From assembly GCA_014238155.1 (NCBI GenBank), contig JABABQ010000021.1:1-64000 (forward strand): a stretch of DNA of 64,000 bases, read 5' to 3'. A program made the position numbers and the translations under genes. Shown piece by piece: positions 1-8,787 of the stretch. This DNA comes from Rhizobiaceae bacterium (GTDB lineage Bacteria > Pseudomonadota > Alphaproteobacteria > Rhizobiales > Rhizobiaceae). How positions within the stretch are numbered: position 1 is the stretch's first letter; each line of letters opens with the position of its first letter. The notes under the pieces were generated by a model. The model was not told the origin of the DNA, ran no database searches, and saw nothing but the letters and a program-made list of their open reading frames with translations.

Positions 1-132
1 ACAGATTTGTCGATACATAGCCAAGCAAAGTTGAGCGCCGTCGCAAGACAGCTCAACGAGCGACCTCGAAAAACGCTGGGATACGAAACTCCCGCTGAGC
101 GTTTCAATGCATGTGTTGCATCGACCCATTGA
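1..132 (+). CDS. IS30-family transposase, C-terminal end (cut by window edge)
   Basis: Frame 1 is open from the first base and ends at TGA 130-132, giving 43 residues. The segment [16 protein letters not shown] is the typical C-terminal block of the IS30/Tra8 DDE transposase integrase core (consensus NxRPRKxLxxxTPxE). These enzymes cut and join the ends of their own insertion sequence. Only the tail is visible, so whether the copy is intact cannot be judged. The inverted repeat of the element should lie close to the stop codon, but I could not fix its boundary. It lies immediately downstream of the TRAP binding-protein gene, where dctQ and dctM partners would be expected. Confidence 0.85.
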
Positions 133-248
133 GACCGCCCCACCTTTCCCAATATCAGGACTTCCCAACGTCAATCACCAAAATCCCACAGTATTCACCG
201 TGTTGGTGACAGACCGGCAATCAACGGTAACATTATCTTGGACCGACC
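133..248. other. Spacer between IS30 end and the TRAP binding-protein gene
   Basis: A non-coding stretch of 116 bases between two convergent genes. It should contain the right inverted repeat of the IS30 element and the end of the thi/TRAP transcript. I see no clear hairpin followed by a T run. Confidence 0.4.
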
Positions 249-1325
249 CTAACTACGGACGGCCAAAAACTTCTGGACCGATTCAGACGACCATTGTTTC
301 AGATGGCTGGAGGCATTGCGGAAACTGTTGACCGCTTCCGCGGTCAATGGATCGCGTGCTTCAAGACTGTCGAGCGCCTCGACAGTTGCAATCCGTGCGG
401 CTTCGATAATGTCAGCTGGATAATCGCGCAGCTGAACACCTTTTTCTTCAACCAGAATTTTCAGGCGCGCCGCATTCATCCATTCAGACTCACCCAGAGC
501 CAGAATATTTTCCGCCGCACACGCGTGTTCAACAATAGCCCGCAGATGCGCCGGCAATTGTTGCAGCGCCACCTTTGAGACAAGCGCCTCACCCGTGCCG
601 TTTGGTTCATGGAAACCCGGCGCATAATAGTATTTTGCGGCCTTGTAAAAACCCATTGCAAAATCACTGGAAGGACCGAGGAACTCGGTTGCGTCGATAA
701 CACCAGATTGCAGTGCGGTGAGAATTTCGCCCGGCGCCAGTGTGACCGGAGAAGCTCCCAGCAGGCGCATAACCTCGCCGCCCAATCCTGGCATGCGAAT
801 TTTCAATCCGCGCAAGTCGGCGACCGATTTCAACTCTTTCTTGTACCAGCCACCCATCTGAAATCCGGTATTGCCGGCCATGAATGGCTTGATACCAAAG
901 GGCTCATACAACTTGTCCCAGATCGCCTGCCCACCGCCGTGGTTGATCCAGGTGATGTGCTCGATTGGTGTCAGACCGAAGGGGCCAGCTGTAAACAATG
1001 GCGCAGCTGAAATCTTACCGCCCCAAAATAGCGCCGCTGTATGGCCCATATGGGCGGCACCACCGGACACTGCGGAAAAAACTTCAAGCGCCGGAACCAA
1101 CTCGCCAGCCGCGTAGAGTTTTACGGTCAGAGCGCCGTCAGACATTTTGGTGATGGAATCGGCCAACCGCTGGGCCGTCACCCCGGGGCCGGGCAGATTT
1201 TTGGGCCAGGACGTGACCATCCGCCATTCGATTTTGGATTGCGCGATTGCCGGTGTGGCCAGTGCCGCCCCAGGTGCTGCCGCTGCGATCAGGCCGAGAG
1301 CGTTGCGTCGATTGAGTTTGGTCAT
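249..1325 (-). CDS. TRAP transporter solute-binding protein (DctP/TakP type)
   Basis: Periplasmic binding protein of a tripartite ATP-independent transporter, 358 aa from ATG 1323-1325. Residues 1-28 form a Tat/Sec-like signal peptide (NRR near the start, cleavage near AIAQ). The mature protein carries the DctP-family blocks GNTGFQMGGWYKKEL, where the Gly/Trp motif and basic residues normally hold the substrate carboxylate, and IDATEFLGPSSD, which matches the Na+/substrate-binding segment of TakP. By family a small carboxylate (2-oxo acid) would be expected. The start lies 4 nt beyond the thiD stop, with GGAA just upstream, so it belongs to the TPP-riboswitch operon and may bind a thiamine precursor; that is inference. 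No DctQ or DctM gene is visible. Longer upstream starts would only run into thiD. Confidence 0.88.
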   Translation of the reverse strand: MTKLNRRNALGLIAAAAPGAALATPAIAQSKIEWRMVTSWPKNLPGPGVTAQRLADSITKMSDGALTVKLYAAGELVPALEVFSAVSGGAAHMGHTAALFWGGKISAAPLFTAGPFGLTPIEHITWINHGGGQAIWDKLYEPFGIKPFMAGNTGFQMGGWYKKELKSVADLRGLKIRMPGLGGEVMRLLGASPVTLAPGEILTALQSGVIDATEFLGPSSDFAMGFYKAAKYYYAPGFHEPNGTGEALVSKVALQQLPAHLRAIVEHACAAENILALGESEWMNAARLKILVEEKGVQLRDYPADIIEAARIATVEALDSLEARDPLTAEAVNSFRNASSHLKQWSSESVQKFLAVRS

Positions 1326-1329
1326 GGTG

Positions 1330-2133
1330 TCAGTTCCAAAATTGGTGAAAGTGATGGACCGGCCCCGCCCCGGATCCGATTTGCAGCGTGTCGGCGGCGG
1401 CAATGGCTTTGGTAATCCATCCTTTTGCCTTGTCGATGGCAGTTGGCATGTCGTCGCCCTTGGCCAGATACGAAGTGATTGCTGAAGACAATGAGCAACC
1501 GGTGCCATGGGTGTTTTTGGTGTCGATAAACGGCCCCTGAAACCAGCTGATCGAACCATCTGCGGCAACATAACAATCGTCGGCCCTGTCACCACCTCTG
1601 TGCCCGCCCTTCAACAAGACGGATTGTGCACCCATGTCGATGAGTTGTTGTGCCTGATCCTGCATCTGCTGATTTGATTGAGCCGGATTGGTTTTCAACA
1701 ACCTTGCCGCCTCGTGCAGGTTTGGCGTGATCAGCTGGGCAATCGGAAACAGATATTTGACGAGTGATAGTTCTGCGTCTTCTGCCAATAAAGGATCGCC
1801 GGATTCAGCCACCATCACCGGGTCCAGCACGATGGCGAATGGCGCATCCTGTTTCAGCCCATCTGCCACGGTTTCGATGATTGCAGGTTGGGACAACATG
1901 CCAATTTTGACAGCATTTATTATCAAGTCGCTGAACACCGCGTTCATTTGGGCGCGGATAAAATCCACCGGAACGTCATGGATGGCGCTAACTCCCAGAG
2001 TGTTTTGGGCAGTCAACGCAGTCAGCACGCTGGCACCATAGACACCACAGGCAGAAAAGGTCTTCAGATCAGCTTGAATCCCGGCTCCGCCACCTGAATC
2101 AGAGCCGGCAATGGTCAGGGCAATGGCGGTCAT
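1330..2133 (-). CDS. thiD: Hydroxymethylpyrimidine/phosphomethylpyrimidine kinase
   Basis: Phosphorylates HMP and HMP-P to HMP-PP, the pyrimidine half of thiamine, in the cytoplasm. The 267-aa protein has the ThiD N-terminal motif AGSDSGGGAGIQADLKTF (ribokinase fold), the central VLDPVM block, and the ATP/anion-hole motif NTHGTGCSLSSAI near residue 210. ATG 2131-2133 overlaps the thiE stop as ATGA, so the two are translationally coupled. A GTG three codons upstream is possible but less likely. It is third in the operon thiM-thiE-thiD-TRAP SBP. Confidence 0.96.
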   Translation of the reverse strand: MTAIALTIAGSDSGGGAGIQADLKTFSACGVYGASVLTALTAQNTLGVSAIHDVPVDFIRAQMNAVFSDLIINAVKIGMLSQPAIIETVADGLKQDAPFAIVLDPVMVAESGDPLLAEDAELSLVKYLFPIAQLITPNLHEAARLLKTNPAQSNQQMQDQAQQLIDMGAQSVLLKGGHRGGDRADDCYVAADGSISWFQGPFIDTKNTHGTGCSLSSAITSYLAKGDDMPTAIDKAKGWITKAIAAADTLQIGSGAGPVHHFHQFWN

Positions 2134-2777
2134 GACAGGCACCTGTTGGTTATCAGCTTCAGCTCGCGGGTTGCAGCCTTCACATCATCAGCCATGAAAA
2201 TAGCCGAAATGATTGCAGCGCCATCCGCACCGTTTTTGAGAACCGCTTCAAGATTGCTCGCGTCAATACCGGCAATGGCGCCAACGGGAAATTTGGGAGC
2301 CACGTGGCGAAAATGAGCGGCGATTGCAGCCCAACCCTGCAGGCCGATATTGGTCGGGTTTTCCTTCGACATAGTTGAATAAACACCGCCAATGCAGGCG
2401 TAGTCGATAAGATCCAGAGGTGCCTGTCTGGCGTGTTCCTCTGTCTTAATCGTCAGCCCGATAATCGCATTTGGACCCAGCAAGCGTCTTGCATCTTTTG
2501 GCGTCATATCCGACTGGCCGACATGAACACCGTCCGCTTCCACGGCCAGTGCCACGTCAACCCGGTCATTGATCAGCAATGGCACGTTATAGCCCGAAAG
2601 CGCCTGTTTGATAGTGACTGCGTTTTCGATCAAGGTGCGGGTATCGCCGTCCTTGTCGCGATATTGCAGCAGGGTAATGCCGCCATCCGCAGCGGCGCGC
2701 GTCAGATCGGCCAGCGATCGGTTGCGAGTGCGATGCGGATCGATGATGCCGTATAGCGAAACGTCACAAGGGTTCAC
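2130..2777 (-). CDS. thiE: Thiamine-phosphate synthase
   Basis: Joins HMP-PP and thiazole phosphate to give thiamine phosphate. The 215-aa protein is full length for ThiE. Family motifs visible are LLQYRDK (phosphate/pyrimidine site), LLINDRVDVALAVEADGVHVGQSDM, IGGVYSTMSKENP and VGAIAGIDASN. The start is GTG 2775-2777, which overlaps the thiM stop (GTGA), so it should be translated by coupling to thiM. Confidence 0.96.
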   Translation of the reverse strand: MNPCDVSLYGIIDPHRTRNRSLADLTRAAADGGITLLQYRDKDGDTRTLIENAVTIKQALSGYNVPLLINDRVDVALAVEADGVHVGQSDMTPKDARRLLGPNAIIGLTIKTEEHARQAPLDLIDYACIGGVYSTMSKENPTNIGLQGWAAIAAHFRHVAPKFPVGAIAGIDASNLEAVLKNGADGAAIISAIFMADDVKAATRELKLITNRCLS

Positions 2778-3541
2778 GACAGTCTGGCCCCCTGCACAAT
2801 GTCGCTTTCATCCAGATTGCTCAAAGCATCAAGGAAATGCGGAACGAATGTTCCCGGCCCACCGGATTTGCGCTCGGCGTGATCTCCGGCCAGCGCAAAC
2901 AATGTCAGGGCCGAAGTTGCCGCCAGTAAATGGTCATCCTCAACCGCGATGAATCCAACTGCCAGTGCTGTCAATGCGCAGCCCATTGCGGTTACCCGAT
3001 CCATTGTCGAGCTGCCGTTTGCAACATACATGCGGCCATCGCTGTTGCGGATCAAATCCAATTTGCCGGTTAACGCGATGGTCGTGTTGGGCCAGTTGTC
3101 GTCATTTTGCGGCTGTTCTGCGTCGATGCCGTAAAGGGTTTCAAACTCTGTGCCATTGCAACGCACCAGCGCCGGATTTTGTTTCAGCAGCCGCAATGCC
3201 AGATTCAATCGCGCCGGTGAGGCCTGAACAAATACCGGATCTAACGCCCAGGGTTTTTTCAGGGTATCGGCTGTTGTCACCGCATGACCTACCGCCTTGG
3301 TTCGATCAGCATCCATCGTGCCGAGATTGATCAGCAAAGCATCAGCCATGCCGACAAAGTCGGCGATCTCCTCCGCAGCAATGGTCATCGAAGGTGTGGC
3401 GCCAGATGCAAGTAAAACATTGGCGGTAAATTGCTGCGCAACGGAATTGGTAATGCAATGGACGTGTGGGCGTGCCTCGCGAAAGCGATTGACGCAATCG
3501 GCAATATCAGTGGCTGTAACTTCGGGTGGTTTTTCGGCCAT
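2774..3541 (-). CDS. thiM: Hydroxyethylthiazole kinase
   Basis: Phosphorylates 4-methyl-5-(2-hydroxyethyl)thiazole, a salvage step of thiamine synthesis. The 255 aa have the ThiM N-terminal block VHCITNSVAQQFTANVLLASGATPSM (residues about 27-52), WALDPVFVQASPAR, NGTEFETLYG and the C-terminal glycine-rich segment around TAMGCALTALAVG. It is the first gene after the TPP aptamer. The Shine-Dalgarno sequence GGAGGGA ends about 5 nt before ATG 3539-3541 and is part of the aptamer closing stem, so ligand binding should block initiation. With ThiE and ThiD it forms a salvage-only set; thiC and thiG are not in the window. Confidence 0.95.
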   Translation of the reverse strand: MAEKPPEVTATDIADCVNRFREARPHVHCITNSVAQQFTANVLLASGATPSMTIAAEEIADFVGMADALLINLGTMDADRTKAVGHAVTTADTLKKPWALDPVFVQASPARLNLALRLLKQNPALVRCNGTEFETLYGIDAEQPQNDDNWPNTTIALTGKLDLIRNSDGRMYVANGSSTMDRVTAMGCALTALAVGFIAVEDDHLLAATSALTLFALAGDHAERKSGGPGTFVPHFLDALSNLDESDIVQGARLS

Positions 3542-3542
3542 C

Positions 3543-3632
3543 CCATTCCCTCCGCCGGCACAATCCGGATCAGGTTCAAAGAGTTGATGTTGCCATCTCT
3601 CAGCCCCGCACGGGCACCTCTATGAGAATAGT
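3543..3632 (-). promoter_or_regulatory. TPP (thi-box) riboswitch
   Basis: Read on the minus strand, the region carries the conserved thi-box cores: GGGGCUGAGAGAUGGC (P2/P3 junction with CUGAGA) and, about 20 nt later, CUUUGAACCUGAUCCGG followed by GCCGGCGGAGGGAAU (P4/P5 and the 3' strand of P1). The 3' P1 strand contains the thiM Shine-Dalgarno, so regulation is probably translational, switched off by thiamine pyrophosphate. Confidence 0.95.
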
Positions 3633-3674
3633 CGTGGTTTAGACCCTGCTTCGCCTTTCGGCAAGGGCAATCTT

Positions 3675-6008
3675 TTATGCAGCTTTGGAGCCACCATCCC
3701 GCGTCGCCGCCTGAATGGTGTCCCACATGGCCAGCGGTGTCACCGGCATGTCGATATGCTGAATGCCATATTCGCGATGCAGGGCATTGACGATGGCGTT
3801 CATTACCGCTGGACCAGCACCGATGGTTCCTGCTTCTCCGGCTCCCTTAATGCCCAACGCGTTGGTTGTGGAGGGAACATTGCGGGTTTCAAAGTGGAAA
3901 TCCGGAAAATCCTCGGCCCTTGGCATGCGGTAATCCATAAAACTTGCTGATACCAACTGCCCATCTTCATCGTAGACCGTCTGCTCCATAATACACTGTC
4001 CGATGGCCTGCACGACGCCGCCATGCACCTGACCGGCAAGCAGCAATGGATTTACCGTGGCACCAAAATCATCGACCATTGTATAACCGACAACTTTGGT
4101 CACACCGGTCTGGGGGTCGATTTCAACTTCACAAATGTGGGTCCCGTTGGGATAGGTGGCTTCGTCCTGAACAAAATCGCCGGTGGCCTGCAAAGCAGCA
4201 TCGCTGGCTGCCGCAATATCTGCAAATGTCATACTGCGGTCGGTGCCAACAATACGCACTTCTGCGTTGATCAGTTCCAGGTCGTCAGCTGCTGCTTCCA
4301 ATTTGTCTGCAGCTACCTGCTTGATCATTTCTGCCAGCGCCTCGCTGCCACGTTTGACAGAAACACCGCCCAGCGGAATTGATCGCGAACCGCCAGTGCC
4401 ACCACCGGCTTCCAGCTCGTCGGTATCGCCCTGACGGACATCGATTGAATCGATGTCGAGGTTCAGGGCTTCTGCAGCAAATTGAGCATAAGCCGTTCTG
4501 TGACCCTGCCCGTTGCATTGAGTGCCGATCAACAAGCTGATCGTGCCATCAGATTTGAGCCCAAGTTTGGCAGGTTCGGACCCTGCAAAAGCACAGGCTT
4601 CGATGTAGGTTGACATTCCAATGCCGCGGAACTTGCCGCTCGCCCTGGCTTGCGCGGCCCTGTCATCAAACTGGTTCCATTCGGCAACCTCCATGCATTT
4701 ATCCAGATGCATGGTAAATTGGCCTGTATCATATTTATGTTTAAATACAGTTGTGTACGGCAGTGCATTTTCAGGGATCGCATTGATTTTCCTGATTTGG
4801 TCCGGGCTCATGTTGCGGTCGCGGGCACACTGATCCACCAGCCGTTCCAGCGCATAGATCGCCTCGGGACGACCAGCCCCGCGATAGGCGTCGGTGGGTG
4901 TTGTGTGGGAATACACGCCGCGAATACCAAACCGGCACGCCTTGATGTCATATATGCCCGTTGCGATGGTGGTGCCAAGTGTCGGAATAAACGGCCCGAA
5001 CGTATGCAGATAGGCACCCATGGCGGCGATCAGATCCACATCCAGAGCCAGAAATTTGCTGTTTTCATCCATCGCCATGCGCATCGTTACAACGTTGTCG
5101 CGGCCATGGGCATCGGTCAGAAAATGCTCACTGCGGTCACCAACCCATTTGATTGGTCTGCCCAGTCGCTTGGCGGCGATCAGAGCCAGAGGATATTCGC
5201 GATATGGAAACACTTTTGTGCCGAAACCACCACCAACATCAGGGGTGATTACCCGCATCTTGTCTTGTTCAATGTTGAGGCAACGGGCAACATTTTCGCG
5301 CATGCCATGCACGCCCTGCGATCCGGTGGTCAGTATGTAGCGGTCTTCTTTGCTGGACCATTCGGCGAGACAGGCGCGCGTTTCCATATAATTGCAAACC
5401 AACCGGTTGTTGATCAGCGTCAACTCAGTAATGTGTTTGGCGTTTTCGAAGGCGGCTTTTGTTTCATCGTGATTGCCCATGGCAAACTCAAAGGCGAGAT
5501 TGTTGGGCTTGTCAGGATAGACCAGTGGTGCGTCGTCCGACAGGGCACCCACAGTGTCCACCACCACGTCCAGCATATCATAATCGACTTCGATTGCCTC
5601 AGCAGCCAGTTGCGCCTGGTCAACGCTATCTGCCACAACAAAAGCGATAGCATCGCCCACATGGCGAACTGTGTCGCGGCACAAAAGCGGGATATCCTTC
5701 GGCGTCACATTGGTGCCGTCAACCTGTTCCAGCAGCGTCTGGCAGCGCAAGTCACTGAAACCTTTCAAATCATTGGCGGTCATCACCAGATGAACACCGG
5801 GCATGGCACGGGCCGTATCAATATCCTCGATGGTGAATGTTGCATGTGCCACCGGTGAGCGCAGCAAACTGGCATGGAGTTCCCCGTCCCGCTTTATGTC
5901 ACTTGTATACTGCCCCTGCCCGGTAATGAACTTTGCGTCCTCCTTGCGGACGACTGATTGTCCCATACCTACTTTTTGACCAAATTTTGGAGGGGTAAAT
6001 GCGTTCAT
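3675..6008 (-). CDS. Molybdopterin-binding large subunit, xanthine dehydrogenase/CO dehydrogenase family (form II CoxL-like)
   Basis: Catalytic large subunit of a molybdenum hydroxylase, about 777 aa from ATG 6006-6008, the usual length. The N-terminal a/b-hammerhead domain (residues about 15-130, with RKEDAKFITGQGQYTSDI) is followed by the molybdopterin domain: PDVGGGFGTK, DAYRGAGRPEA, TQCNGQGH, GGTGGSRSIPLGG and a C-terminal GAGEAGTIGAGPA containing the expected catalytic Glu. The AYRGAGR active-site loop marks form II rather than true CO dehydrogenase (AYxCSFR), so the substrate is unknown. The FAD (CoxM) and 2Fe-2S (CoxS) subunits are absent on both sides, which is unusual. A TTG seven codons upstream is an alternative start. 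A palindrome sits just upstream (6026-6043). Confidence 0.9.
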   Translation of the reverse strand: MNAFTPPKFGQKVGMGQSVVRKEDAKFITGQGQYTSDIKRDGELHASLLRSPVAHATFTIEDIDTARAMPGVHLVMTANDLKGFSDLRCQTLLEQVDGTNVTPKDIPLLCRDTVRHVGDAIAFVVADSVDQAQLAAEAIEVDYDMLDVVVDTVGALSDDAPLVYPDKPNNLAFEFAMGNHDETKAAFENAKHITELTLINNRLVCNYMETRACLAEWSSKEDRYILTTGSQGVHGMRENVARCLNIEQDKMRVITPDVGGGFGTKVFPYREYPLALIAAKRLGRPIKWVGDRSEHFLTDAHGRDNVVTMRMAMDENSKFLALDVDLIAAMGAYLHTFGPFIPTLGTTIATGIYDIKACRFGIRGVYSHTTPTDAYRGAGRPEAIYALERLVDQCARDRNMSPDQIRKINAIPENALPYTTVFKHKYDTGQFTMHLDKCMEVAEWNQFDDRAAQARASGKFRGIGMSTYIEACAFAGSEPAKLGLKSDGTISLLIGTQCNGQGHRTAYAQFAAEALNLDIDSIDVRQGDTDELEAGGGTGGSRSIPLGGVSVKRGSEALAEMIKQVAADKLEAAADDLELINAEVRIVGTDRSMTFADIAAASDAALQATGDFVQDEATYPNGTHICEVEIDPQTGVTKVVGYTMVDDFGATVNPLLLAGQVHGGVVQAIGQCIMEQTVYDEDGQLVSASFMDYRMPRAEDFPDFHFETRNVPSTTNALGIKGAGEAGTIGAGPAVMNAIVNALHREYGIQHIDMPVTPLAMWDTIQAATRDGGSKAA

Positions 6009-6025
6009 AAGGATGTCCCGATTGG

Positions 6026-6043
6026 CCAATTGTCACCAATTGG
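6026..6043. promoter_or_regulatory. Palindrome between divergent coxL-like and DMT genes
   Basis: CCAATTG-TCAC-CAATTGG is a perfect 7-bp inverted repeat with a 4-nt spacer, 17 bases upstream of the CoxL-like ATG and inside the divergent intergenic region (6009-6231). Its symmetry and place suggest an operator, but no regulator is known. Confidence 0.4.
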
Positions 6044-6231: not shown

Positions 6232-7128
6232 ATGCCGGGGAACCTCAAAGGAGCTTTGACGCTACTGGTTGCCGCTGCAGGCTTTTCGATCATGGTGGTG
6301 TTGGTCAAGCTTGCTGGCGAAAGGCTGGACGTAACTCAAATCCTGCTGGTCCGTCAGCTGATCATGATGTTGATAGTCATGCCCAGCGTTTTGAACCATT
6401 TTCCCGGCTGCCTCAAAACCAAACGGCTCGACCTTCAGATCATCCGCGTCTTTTTTGCCCTGATTGCCATGTTGTGCGGGTTTTATTCGATCATCCACAT
6501 GCCGCTGGCCGATGCGGTGGCGATTGGTTTTGCCAAGAGCTTTTTCGTCACCATTTTTGCTATCTGGTTGCTCAAAGAAGTCGTTGGAATTCGCCGCTGG
6601 ATGGCTGTCGGCATCGGTTTTGTCGGGGTGATCGTGATGATGCGACCCGGGTTCGACGGATTTGATCCGATTTCGATATTCGCGCTGATCGGCGCCGCTG
6701 GGGCCGGATTGGTGATGGTGATCATTCGTAAATTATCCCAAACTGATCAACCAATTACGACGTTGAGTTATCAGGCGTTTCTTGTGGCATTCTGCGTCGC
6801 CGTTCCAGCGATTTATTATTGGCAGACCCCGACGGCTTTCGAATGGGGTCTGATGGTCGCCATCGGAATTGTGTCCTACGGCGCGCAAATGCTGAATATC
6901 TATGCCTATACGTGGGGCGAGGCTTCGGTGCTGGCGTCGCTCGACTATGTGCGACTGCTCTATGCAACGTTTCTGGGCTGGCTGATCTTTGACACGTTTC
7001 CGGGGCCCTATACGTGGCTCGGCGCGCTGGTCATTATCGCCGCCTCCATCTACACGGTGCATCGCGAGCGCAAAGTCAATACGCGCCTCGCCCGCAGCCC
7101 CGACGGGCGTGGTTTTACCAATACCTGA
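6232..7128 (+). CDS. DMT-superfamily permease (EamA)
   Basis: Inner-membrane transporter of about 298 aa from ATG 6232. Ten hydrophobic segments can be followed, arranged as two EamA repeats of about five each, starting with GALTLLVAAAGFSIMVVLVKLAG; the second repeat begins near ISIFALIGAAGAGLVMVII. Members export or import metabolites, so the substrate cannot be told from sequence. The reading frame is open upstream to TTG 6136, but that adds a charged leader without family support. It is divergent from the CoxL-like gene and convergent with pgi, 15 nt apart. Confidence 0.85.
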   Translation: MPGNLKGALTLLVAAAGFSIMVVLVKLAGERLDVTQILLVRQLIMMLIVMPSVLNHFPGCLKTKRLDLQIIRVFFALIAMLCGFYSIIHMPLADAVAIGFAKSFFVTIFAIWLLKEVVGIRRWMAVGIGFVGVIVMMRPGFDGFDPISIFALIGAAGAGLVMVIIRKLSQTDQPITTLSYQAFLVAFCVAVPAIYYWQTPTAFEWGLMVAIGIVSYGAQMLNIYAYTWGEASVLASLDYVRLLYATFLGWLIFDTFPGPYTWLGALVIIAASIYTVHRERKVNTRLARSPDGRGFTNT

Positions 7129-7143
7129 TGCCGACTTTTTGGC

Positions 7144-8787
7144 TCAGCCCTGGCGCATGGCGTGAAACGCTGCGAGCAATCCTGAAGTCGAGCCGTTGCG
7201 ACCTTCAGCATCGACCTCTCCCTTGACTCCCTTGACCATGGGAAGCAATTCTCCAGCCAGTTCCTTGCCCAGTTCAACGCCCCACTGATCATAGGAATTG
7301 ATGTTCCATATCACCCCCTGCACAAAGACCTTGTGTTCATACAGGGCAATCAGCTGACCCAAAACATGGGGCGTCAATTTGGGATATAGAAATGTGCTGG
7401 TTGGACGATTGCCAGGAAAGGCCTTGTGGGGAACCAGCGCTTCAATCTTGTCTGTTGCAATCCCGGCTTTTTTCAATTGTTGCTCGACTTGCCGGCGTGA
7501 CTTGCCGAGTGCCAGTGCCTCTGTCTGGGCAAAGGCGTTGGCAACCAGTTTTTGGTGGTGATCACCAATTGGATCATTGGCATTGGCTGCAACAAGAAAG
7601 TCAGCGGGAATAATCGATGTGCCCTGATGGATCAACTGATAAAATGCATGCTGCCCGTTCGTCCCCGGTTCACCCCAGACAACGGGGCCGGTTTGGCCAA
7701 CCACGTCGTCTCCATCCAGCGTGATGCGCTTGCCGTTTGATTCCATATCCAGCTGTTGCAAATAGGCTGCAAAGCGGTGCAGATGCTGGTCATAGGGCAG
7801 AACCGCGTGAGTATCATAACCGCATATATTGCGGTGATAGATGCCAATCAGCGCCATCAACAAGGGCACATTTTCTGATGCCTTGGCGGTTTGAAAATGT
7901 TGATCGACAGCGTGAGCCCCACCGAGGAATTCTACAAAAGCCTCCGGTCCCACTGCCAGCATGACCGACAGGCCGATTGCCGACCACACCGAATAACGCC
8001 CACCAACCCAGTCCCAGAAGCCAAAGGCGCGGTCATCACGAATTCCAAAGGCTTTGGTTTTATCCAGCGCCGTGGATAGCGCGGCAAAGTGCGCTTCGAC
8101 TGCTGTTTCACCGCAACGCTCTACAAACCATTCTCGTGCGGTCTGCGCATTGGTCATGGTTTCCTGGGTGGTGAATGTTTTTGAGGCAACAATGAACAAT
8201 GTCGTATCTGCATTCAGACTGGACAACACATCAGCAATGTCTGCCCCGTCTACATTGGACACGAAATGCACGTTGGGGCCATTTTGATAGGGTGTTAAAG
8301 CTGCAGCGACCATCACTGGCCCCAAATCAGAACCACCGATGCCGATATTTACGATATCGGTGAACGGGCCGCCCTGCCCGGCAATTGAGCCATCCCGAAC
8401 GCCCTTTGAAAAAGCCGTCATGCGTTCGCGAACGGCAGTGATTTCGGGCTGCACATTCTCACCATCAACCATGATTGTCGTGCTGGTCAGATCGCGCAAC
8501 GCGGTATGTTGGACGGCGCGATCTTCGGTGACATTGATATGCTCGCCAGAAAACAAAGCCGCGCGACGCCCAGGAAGGTCAGCGGCATCAGCAAGCGCAA
8601 ACAATCCATTCAGCTGATCGACGTTCAGATTGTTTTTTGAATAGTCAAAATGGATTTCACCACACCGGGCAGAGAAATTTTCAAACCTGTTGGGATCCTG
8701 CTCAAACAGTCCGGCGATTGTCTGATCTGTCGTTGCTGCATGCAGGTGCTTCACCTGTTGCAAGGCATCTTGTGCGTCCTGTTTCAT
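7144..8787 (-). CDS. pgi: Glucose-6-phosphate isomerase
   Basis: Interconverts glucose-6-phosphate and fructose-6-phosphate in the cytoplasm. The 547 aa equal the normal length of the long bacterial form. Signatures visible: VNIGIGGSDLGPVM and FIVASKTFTTQET (sugar-phosphate binding SIS domains), FWDWVGGRYSVWSAIGLS, VWGEPGTNGQHAFYQLIHQG with the catalytic Glu/His, and FVQGVIWNINSYDQWGVELGK (PGI signature 2) near residue 485. ATG 8785-8787 is the natural start. Monocistronic as far as can be seen. Confidence 0.97.
   Translation of the reverse strand: MKQDAQDALQQVKHLHAATTDQTIAGLFEQDPNRFENFSARCGEIHFDYSKNNLNVDQLNGLFALADAADLPGRRAALFSGEHINVTEDRAVQHTALRDLTSTTIMVDGENVQPEITAVRERMTAFSKGVRDGSIAGQGGPFTDIVNIGIGGSDLGPVMVAAALTPYQNGPNVHFVSNVDGADIADVLSSLNADTTLFIVASKTFTTQETMTNAQTAREWFVERCGETAVEAHFAALSTALDKTKAFGIRDDRAFGFWDWVGGRYSVWSAIGLSVMLAVGPEAFVEFLGGAHAVDQHFQTAKASENVPLLMALIGIYHRNICGYDTHAVLPYDQHLHRFAAYLQQLDMESNGKRITLDGDDVVGQTGPVVWGEPGTNGQHAFYQLIHQGTSIIPADFLVAANANDPIGDHHQKLVANAFAQTEALALGKSRRQVEQQLKKAGIATDKIEALVPHKAFPGNRPTSTFLYPKLTPHVLGQLIALYEHKVFVQGVIWNINSYDQWGVELGKELAGELLPMVKGVKGEVDAEGRNGSTSGLLAAFHAMRQG

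Follow-up and report, generated by a model that had tools for sequence, protein, structure and literature searches.

Why should a thiamine salvage operon carry the gene of a receptor of the tripartite ATP-independent periplasmic (TRAP) transporter class, whose known ligands are chiefly organic acids? The question is raised by the first genes of the window, that is, the whole 64,000-nucleotide stretch analysed here (positions 1 to 64,000 of contig JABABQ010000021.1, from the Rhizobiaceae bacterium assembly GCA_014238155.1), in which a thiamine pyrophosphate (TPP) riboswitch is followed by thiM, thiE, thiD and the gene of a DctP/TakP-type solute-binding protein (SBP). The answer proposed here is that this SBP is probably a TPP-controlled orphan receptor for the thiazole moiety of vitamin B1, most likely carboxylated hydroxyethylthiazole (cHET), with its permease encoded elsewhere. 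A preliminary description of the locus had reported a TPP-controlled salvage operon including a TakP-like TRAP SBP, and this arrangement is real and widely conserved, with the SBP next to thi genes in 26/26 close orthologues and in 62 of the best 80 loci from named genomes.

The recurrence of the linkage is the first piece of evidence. Among 101 genomes, the window's own and 100 relatives, the SBP had matches in 52 at a threshold of E 1e-80. Of these matches, 27 are close (54-100% identity, counting the window's own), and the others form a separate group at 49% identity or less. The 26 close orthologues besides the own one all have thiD as their neighbour, encoded on the same strand and no more than 400 nt away. 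Their loci hold matches to thiM in 25 cases (the exception, L092, begins inside thiD), to thiE in 23 (not L086, L092 or L094) and to a TPP riboswitch at the Rfam gathering score in 24 (none in L086; L092 is cut). Such DctP homologues next to thiD or behind an RF00059 match are what the preliminary description had suggested looking for, and the lack of recurrence in relatives that it had named as counter-evidence is clearly contradicted. A class-level sample of 385 genomes, searched at E 1e-100, gave 36 matches, own included. Ten of its 29 loci (L104-L132, own excluded) have thi genes adjoining the SBP; the remaining 19 (47-54% identity) have none beside it, and many have DctM near. Eight of the ten have the riboswitch at the gathering score; of the other two, L141 has none and L137 is truncated at its contig start. 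The order is mostly thiE-thiD-SBP, with SBP-thiM-thiE in L136, L140 and L141. The SBP gene directly follows the riboswitch in L136 and L140, and thiM stands between the two in L134, where it overlaps the SBP gene by 4 nt. In L133, genes for an ATP-binding cassette (ABC) ATPase, an ABC permease and proteins of the ThiY and TenA types come next after the SBP (ThiZ-ThiX-ThiY-TenA-like). The spacing between the SBP and the preceding gene, with start codons chosen by script, was measured in 33 loci; three values (-211, -214 and -1071) were set aside as clear measuring errors, and in the other 30 thi-linked loci it ranges from -20 to +65 nt.

In the set of the best 80 SBP loci from named genomes, the thi-adjacent loci number 63 when L251 is counted, where an IS110-family transposase gene (6303-7247) sits between the SBP and thiM. 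A thiM match is present in 60 of these 63 (not L230, L239 or L262), and the holders include Ahrensia sp. R2A130, Roseibium aggregatum, Pannonibacter phragmitetus, Pseudovibrio, Chelatococcus composti, Sneathiella chungangensis and Pacificispira spongiicola. The 17 other loci (L250, L272-L287) have DctM near the SBP in ten cases, as in TakP-like systems. In a phylum sample of 398 genomes, five, counting the window's own, had a match at E 1e-105 or better. One of them, G616 (50% identity), is marked as same phylum only and carries tandem SBPs whose 1.5-kb flanks gave no thi match; a thi-linked SBP also occurs in a metagenome bin labelled Gammaproteobacteria that is possibly misbinned (L237). In a tree of 52 rows, a 100/100 branch separates the 37 thi-linked SBPs from 15 others, a hand-picked selection of the fetched loci with L102 as a long branch among them. 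The thi-linked orphan TRAP receptors are a single, mainly alphaproteobacterial clade.

In the window, the riboswitch stands ahead of thiM-thiE-thiD as first described, with the three genes matching their Pfam families at E 1.6e-56 or better (Table 1), and the gene couplings claimed earlier are all present in the sequence. The thiM/thiE overlap of 4 nt reads GTGA directly from the sequence and that of thiE/thiD reads ATGA, given the in-frame ATG of thiD at 2133, while the SBP begins with the ATG at 1325, 4 nt past the thiD stop (junction TGA CACC ATG). A longer SBP frame, from a GTG at 1595, was rejected as a mechanical open reading frame (ORF) only. From this tight coupling we infer that thiMED and the SBP are probably co-transcribed. 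The 3' end of the aptamer carries GGAGGGAATGGG, and the match reaches 12 nt into thiM, whose ATG lies at 3541. A Shine-Dalgarno-like GGAGG among the final aptamer bases, immediately 5' of this ATG, suggests control of the translation start, and translation initiation is the likely mode of the riboswitch. A site scan of positions 1-4000 found two promoter-like sites against 2.6 expected, that is, not above chance; the separate SBP promoter that the preliminary description had named as counter-evidence, or a riboswitch serving the SBP alone, finds no support above chance in it. Terminator-like sites numbered eight against 4.1 expected (sd 2.0). Three of them, on the minus strand, fall inside thiM (two overlapping), and a weak one falls 47 nt beyond the SBP, with none at the thiD-SBP junction. 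As for the neighbourhood, a gene named from its sequence as xanthine/CO (carbon monoxide) dehydrogenase-like lies just upstream of the riboswitch and is matched in 18/26 relatives' loci (L069-L086), which makes it a conserved neighbour.

Table 1. Features of the window, with positions in window numbering and the evidence for each.
Feature	Position	Strand	Evidence or remark
TPP riboswitch aptamer RF00059	3530..3631	(-)	covariance-model match, 69.2 bits (gathering score 54.3), E 1.6e-11, model 1-105 full length
thiM, hydroxyethylthiazole kinase	2774..3541	(-)	PF02110 E 1.4e-57; NF006830 over cut-off, TIGR00694 under its own
thiE, thiamine phosphate synthase	2130..2777	(-)	PF02581 E 1.6e-56; TIGR00693 over cut-off
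thiD, hydroxymethylpyrimidine (HMP) and HMP phosphate kinase	1330..2142	(-)	PF08543 E 1.6e-94; TIGR00097 over cut-off
orphan DctP/TakP-type TRAP SBP, 358 aa	249..1325	(-)	PF03480 E 3.1e-44; final visible operon gene
xanthine/CO dehydrogenase-like large-subunit gene	3675-6029	(-)	name read from sequence
glycine riboswitch aptamer RF00504	55964-56055	(-)	58.7 bits

The preliminary description was aware of no TRAP system under a TPP riboswitch. What stands here is a receptor and not a system: none of the 26 loci fetched from close relatives (9-16 kb) gave a match to DctQ or DctM. Window position 1 is the contig end, and the 248 nt visible downstream of the SBP hold no permease gene; in the relative locus L069, whose SBP is 96% identical, an unrelated convergent ORF and no permease follows the SBP. 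Given the permease-free loci of the 26 relatives, a DctQM pair just past the end of the window's contig is unlikely. The thi-linked SBP is thus an orphan receptor and not a complete TRAP system.

What the receptor may capture is indicated by the biosynthetic genes of its holders, 37 of which were compared with 28 non-holders. This comparison is unmatched, since 23 of the holders belong to other families while every non-holder is a relative at the level of genus or family. Full-length ThiG (E below 1e-90, weak hits with E above 1e-6 being left uncounted) was found in 1/37 holders against 13/28 non-holders (Fisher p 2e-5, kinship ignored) and, within the window's family alone, in 0/14 holders against 13/28 non-holders. 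ThiM is present in 36/37 holders against 7/28 non-holders (Fisher p 4e-10, kinship ignored), and the contig of the only holder lacking it (G416) starts 1.3 kb upstream of the SBP. The pyrimidine half of the vitamin is covered by ThiC (6/37 holders, in G097 as two fragments, versus 12/28 non-holders) or by ThiY (30/37 versus 7/28) in 34 of the 37 holders, the exceptions being G009, G248 and G427. Four holders (G080, G082, G097 and G289) have ThiC, lack full ThiG and ThiY and keep the SBP, so that thiazole is their need; G082 has its thiC on the SBP strand, downstream of the SBP gene. In L133 the SBP precedes the ThiZ-ThiX-ThiY-TenA-like genes, and the role of ThiY is therefore already filled there. 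In the window's own genome neither full ThiG nor ThiC was found, and a second TPP element (47.1 bits, below the gathering score) stands ahead of ThiX-ThiY-like genes. Judged from these sequence data, the SBP is a good candidate for the missing thiazole receptor in alphaproteobacteria unable to make the thiazole half.

Two side observations concern genomes outside this group of holders. A reduced genome of 0.9 Mb (G014, locus L175) has kept thiM-thiE-thiD-like ORFs, and no SBP candidate was found there. In the non-holders G017, G022 and G032, which have no SBP match at E 1e-80, ThiM lies at most 100 nt from a ThiY homologue, a possible alternative solution for thiazole uptake.

The protein itself belongs to the TakP kind, as the preliminary description had it. 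The DctP profile PF03480 covers residues 50-320, with NF037995 over its cut-off and TIGR00787 under its own, and at E 0.001 there is no Pfam match besides DctP and hence no PF09084 (ThiY/NMT1) domain. The N-terminus has Arg-Arg (R6 R7) in 37/37 thi-linked SBPs, followed by an Ala/Leu-rich stretch, a possible export signal. In an AlphaFold2 model (mean predicted local distance difference test score 91.0), the best structural matches are of the TakP family. The nearest solved structures are 4pet, 7ug8, 5cm6 and 2hzk, with 2hzk_A at a template-modelling score of 0.87 by query and 34% identity; the 14 best chains superpose at 1.3-2.1 A over 316-332 columns. The closest solved relatives with a ligand named in their titles hold 2-oxo acids or lactate. 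Six residues mark the clade (S39, P47, H123, L216, N242 and G243): H123, N242 and G243 each occur in 37/37 members versus 1/15 of the outgroup, L216 in 36/37 versus 0/15, and P47 in 36/37 versus 1/15. In TakP, pyruvate is bound by a salt bridge to R177, by Y100 and by a cation held by E214, E240, Q156 and the W215 carbonyl, and the hydrophobic wall of the pocket includes Y99, F40, V97, V245, A212, A213, P243, T153 and I47 (PMC1839085). The numbering of TakP and the window SBP coincides at these sites (2hzk alignment, read by eye). The carboxylate-binding R177 and the cation-site E214 are kept in 37/37 thi-linked SBPs, and Q156 and E240 in 29/37 and 28/37, the window SBP keeping both. The wall is changed by I47P (36/37), P243G (37/37), Y99L/F (34/37) and V245G/A (36/37), and W215F is found in 34/37, window included; the outgroup SBPs likewise depart from TakP at several wall positions. 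A pocket with R177 and E214 retained and the wall altered would suit a ligand that has a carboxylate and differs in shape and bulk from that of TakP. The earlier guess of a thiazole precursor, possibly carboxylated, thus gains support as a predicted ligand from the general lack of ThiG, the near-universal ThiM, the mostly covered pyrimidine half and the two invariant residues.

According to the vitamer lists available in PMC5899164 and PMC10881298, cHET and its phosphorylated forms are the only B1 vitamers bearing a carboxylate. Escherichia coli uses cHET at sub-picomolar levels, its use by Ostreococcus requires ThiM, cHET phosphate is a substrate of ThiE, and thiazole transporters were still of 'unknown sequence identity' in 2018 (PMC5899164). 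In the mechanism envisaged, the operon would salvage B1 precursors at low TPP, with the riboswitch controlling thiM-thiE-thiD and, through the tight coupling, the orphan periplasmic receptor. This kin of the TakP-like 2-oxo-acid receptors would capture the external thiazole moiety, most likely cHET, whose ring nitrogen (N3) and 2-carboxylate could mimic the chelating alpha-oxo-carboxylate that TakP binds with its arginine and cation. The ligand would then pass to a DctQM permease encoded elsewhere (directly adjoining in family f57, see below), ThiM would phosphorylate the thiazole, ThiD would supply HMP pyrophosphate and ThiE would join both. The fuller version of this proposal, in which the clade was re-tuned from 2-oxo acids to cHET, bridged by a cation or in 9/37 members by a lysine, and borrows a general DctQM under TPP control, is put forward only tentatively, as somewhat less likely to hold in all its parts than to fail in one.

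With regard to the permease, the only case found of one right beside a thi-linked SBP is in f57 (2 loci), where a divergent DctQ-DctM pair adjoins the riboswitch-SBP-thiM-thiE operon (L136 and L140 among the ten thi-linked class-level loci; seen also as L294 in G427 and L295 in G248). In G427 and G248 no ThiC, full ThiG or ThiY was found. Among the 63 thi-linked named loci there is also L249, with a DctM about 3.8 kb off on the opposite strand. With the f57 DctM (L140) as query, a DctM match was obtained at E 1e-40 or better in all 37 holders; among the 35 outside f57, at least 24 have one that is 51-64% identical among the matches listed, four of these spanning only about 360/439 residues (G001, G002, G005 and G011), and the other 11 are weaker. 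Nineteen such DctQM loci were fetched: in 16 an SBP of a different kind lies close to the DctQM, G010 begins at the contig end, and G087 and G100 hold f57-kind DctQM without a match to two SBP queries within about 5.5 kb. In a DctM tree the SBP-less proteins of G087 and G100 do not group with the f57 pair, and no TPP riboswitch at the gathering score was found at five DctQM places (G000, G073, G088, G100 in 1.5-kb flanks only, and G128). Homology to the f57 DctM gave no consistent partner and was set aside as a way to it, G087 and G100 being suggestive only. As judged by eye from ORFs, three of four DctM genes of G082 stand beside their own SBP, the fourth not being resolved, and so do most of the readable ones among about a dozen in G013. 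The simplest possibility would be that the SBP shares the permease of another TRAP transporter.

Several findings weigh against a cHET receptor served by a distant permease. No DctM was found that accompanies the thi-linked SBP everywhere (G082 and G013 inspected), and the close relatives' loci are free of permease genes, as described above. The TakP carboxylate tyrosine, Y100, is replaced by phenylalanine in 32/37 members, window included. The cation site is not strictly kept, since 9/37 have K at 240 (L090, L093, L094, L133, L134, L137, L138, L139 and L143) and 8/37 have S or N at 156, found in five of the nine K240 carriers, where the lysine amine may replace the metal ion. On the side of gene content, holder G401 has both ThiG and ThiC, and the f57 holders lack ThiC and ThiY. 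Moreover, 15/28 non-holders are also without full ThiG and 7/28 have ThiM without the SBP, so that the SBP link is no rule for all thiazole auxotrophs. The p values are inflated by shared ancestry, and some genomes are incomplete (G005 77%, G007 61%).

It is in the light of these points that the alternatives have to be weighed. The receptor might bind neutral hydroxyethylthiazole (HET), a thiamine breakdown product, and R177 and E214 would then be structural or part of a water or ion network. ThiM, classically a HET kinase and nearly universal in the holders, agrees with this, and the loss of Y100 and the variable E240 and Q156 weaken the carboxylate site; the invariance of R177 and E214 and the 2-oxo acids or lactate in the nearest structures with titled ligands speak for a carboxylate, and neutral HET is regarded as rather unlikely. 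It overlaps with the cHET proposal, since both are thiazole uptake. TPP enzymes act on 2-oxo acids, and a receptor whose fold and core residues are TakP-like could still bind such acids, captured by the thi operon in order, for example, to match TPP supply to 2-oxo-acid use. Against this improbable reading, the clade residues H123, N242, G243, L216 and P47 each occur in no more than one of the 15 outgroup rows, the association of the SBP tracks the presence of ThiM and the lack of ThiG, and the window's genome, G001, G002 and G012 have separate TakP-like SBPs without thi genes near.

Thiamine itself or a pyrimidine vitamer (HMP, its aminomethyl analogue AmMP or the formylated FAMP) would suit an operon that also holds thiD and usually thiE, in holders of which 31/37 lack ThiC too. 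Nevertheless, 30/37 holders already have the pyrimidine receptor ThiY, in L133 within the same cluster; the four holders with ThiC and without ThiY keep the SBP, and cationic thiamine would be ill-suited to the invariant R177. This assignment is held to be about as improbable as that of 2-oxo acids. A last alternative concerns the partner and not the ligand: the SBP might hand its ligand to the ABC pair ThiX-ThiZ instead of a TRAP permease. In nine of the best 80 named loci, thiZ, thiX, thiY and/or tenA follow the SBP (L230, L233, L234, L237, L239, L243, L253, L255 and L256), and the f57 holders, which lack ThiY, are those with DctQM beside the SBP. ThiY itself is nonetheless matched in eight of these nine loci, 7/37 holders show no ThiY, and we know of no TRAP-type SBP that docks on an ABC importer, which leaves this the least probable of the readings considered. 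The preferred reading, an orphan TPP-controlled receptor for the thiazole moiety, is compared below with known systems.

With TakP of Rhodobacter sphaeroides (2hzk/2hzl) and its kin (7ug8, 4pet, 5cm6, 4yic) the SBP shares its fold, R177 and E214; it differs in its wall (mostly I47P, Y99L/F, Y100F, P243G, V245G/A and W215F) and in an operon without DctQM, which is a TPP-riboswitch thi operon. Like ThiXYZ, the ABC importer of pyrimidine vitamers whose receptor ThiY is an NMT1/THI5-type SBP, it would be a TPP-controlled periplasmic receptor of a B1 precursor, but PF03480 replaces PF09084, the transporter class is another and so, presumably, is the half of B1. ThiW and ThiU are listed as HET transporters (PMC6593275), and the SBP would share thiazole import with them; unlike ThiW, a membrane protein, it matches only DctP. 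The other transporters listed for B1 and its vitamers are ThiV, CytX, ThiT, ThiBPQ, YkoEDC, ThiPerm, OMR1 and PnuT, and the TRAP class is not named in the B1 transporter lists available from the two sources (PMC10881298, PMC6593275). The SBP has predicted B1-related uptake in common with these eight. None of them is, to our knowledge, of the TRAP class. Orphan receptors of the tripartite tricarboxylate transporter family (Bug proteins, AdpC) resemble it in that their genes lack a nearby membrane partner; they belong to another transporter family, and the excerpts of the source mention no vitamin-riboswitch control (PMC5812351). Among the matches listed in open-access literature on B1 together with TRAP or transporters, there was no TRAP SBP in a thi or TPP operon, which does not prove absence in print; the sole 'TRAP' in the accessible part of PMC3766115 is the tryptophan attenuation protein. 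Each part is of a known kind; what appears new is how they are combined, how widely this combination occurs and that the receptor is an orphan.

If the proposal is true, the SBP would be a missing high-affinity importer component for thiazole and, within the literature searched, the first TRAP-class receptor of a vitamin precursor, which would extend the substrate range of TRAP transporters to a vitamin moiety. Among the HET auxotrophs of a gut survey, just 64% had the HET transporter ThiW (PMC6593275). The orphan state raises the question of how a TRAP receptor finds its permease, and the conserved, riboswitch-controlled receptor of many alphaproteobacteria would offer a concrete protein to assay for cHET import.

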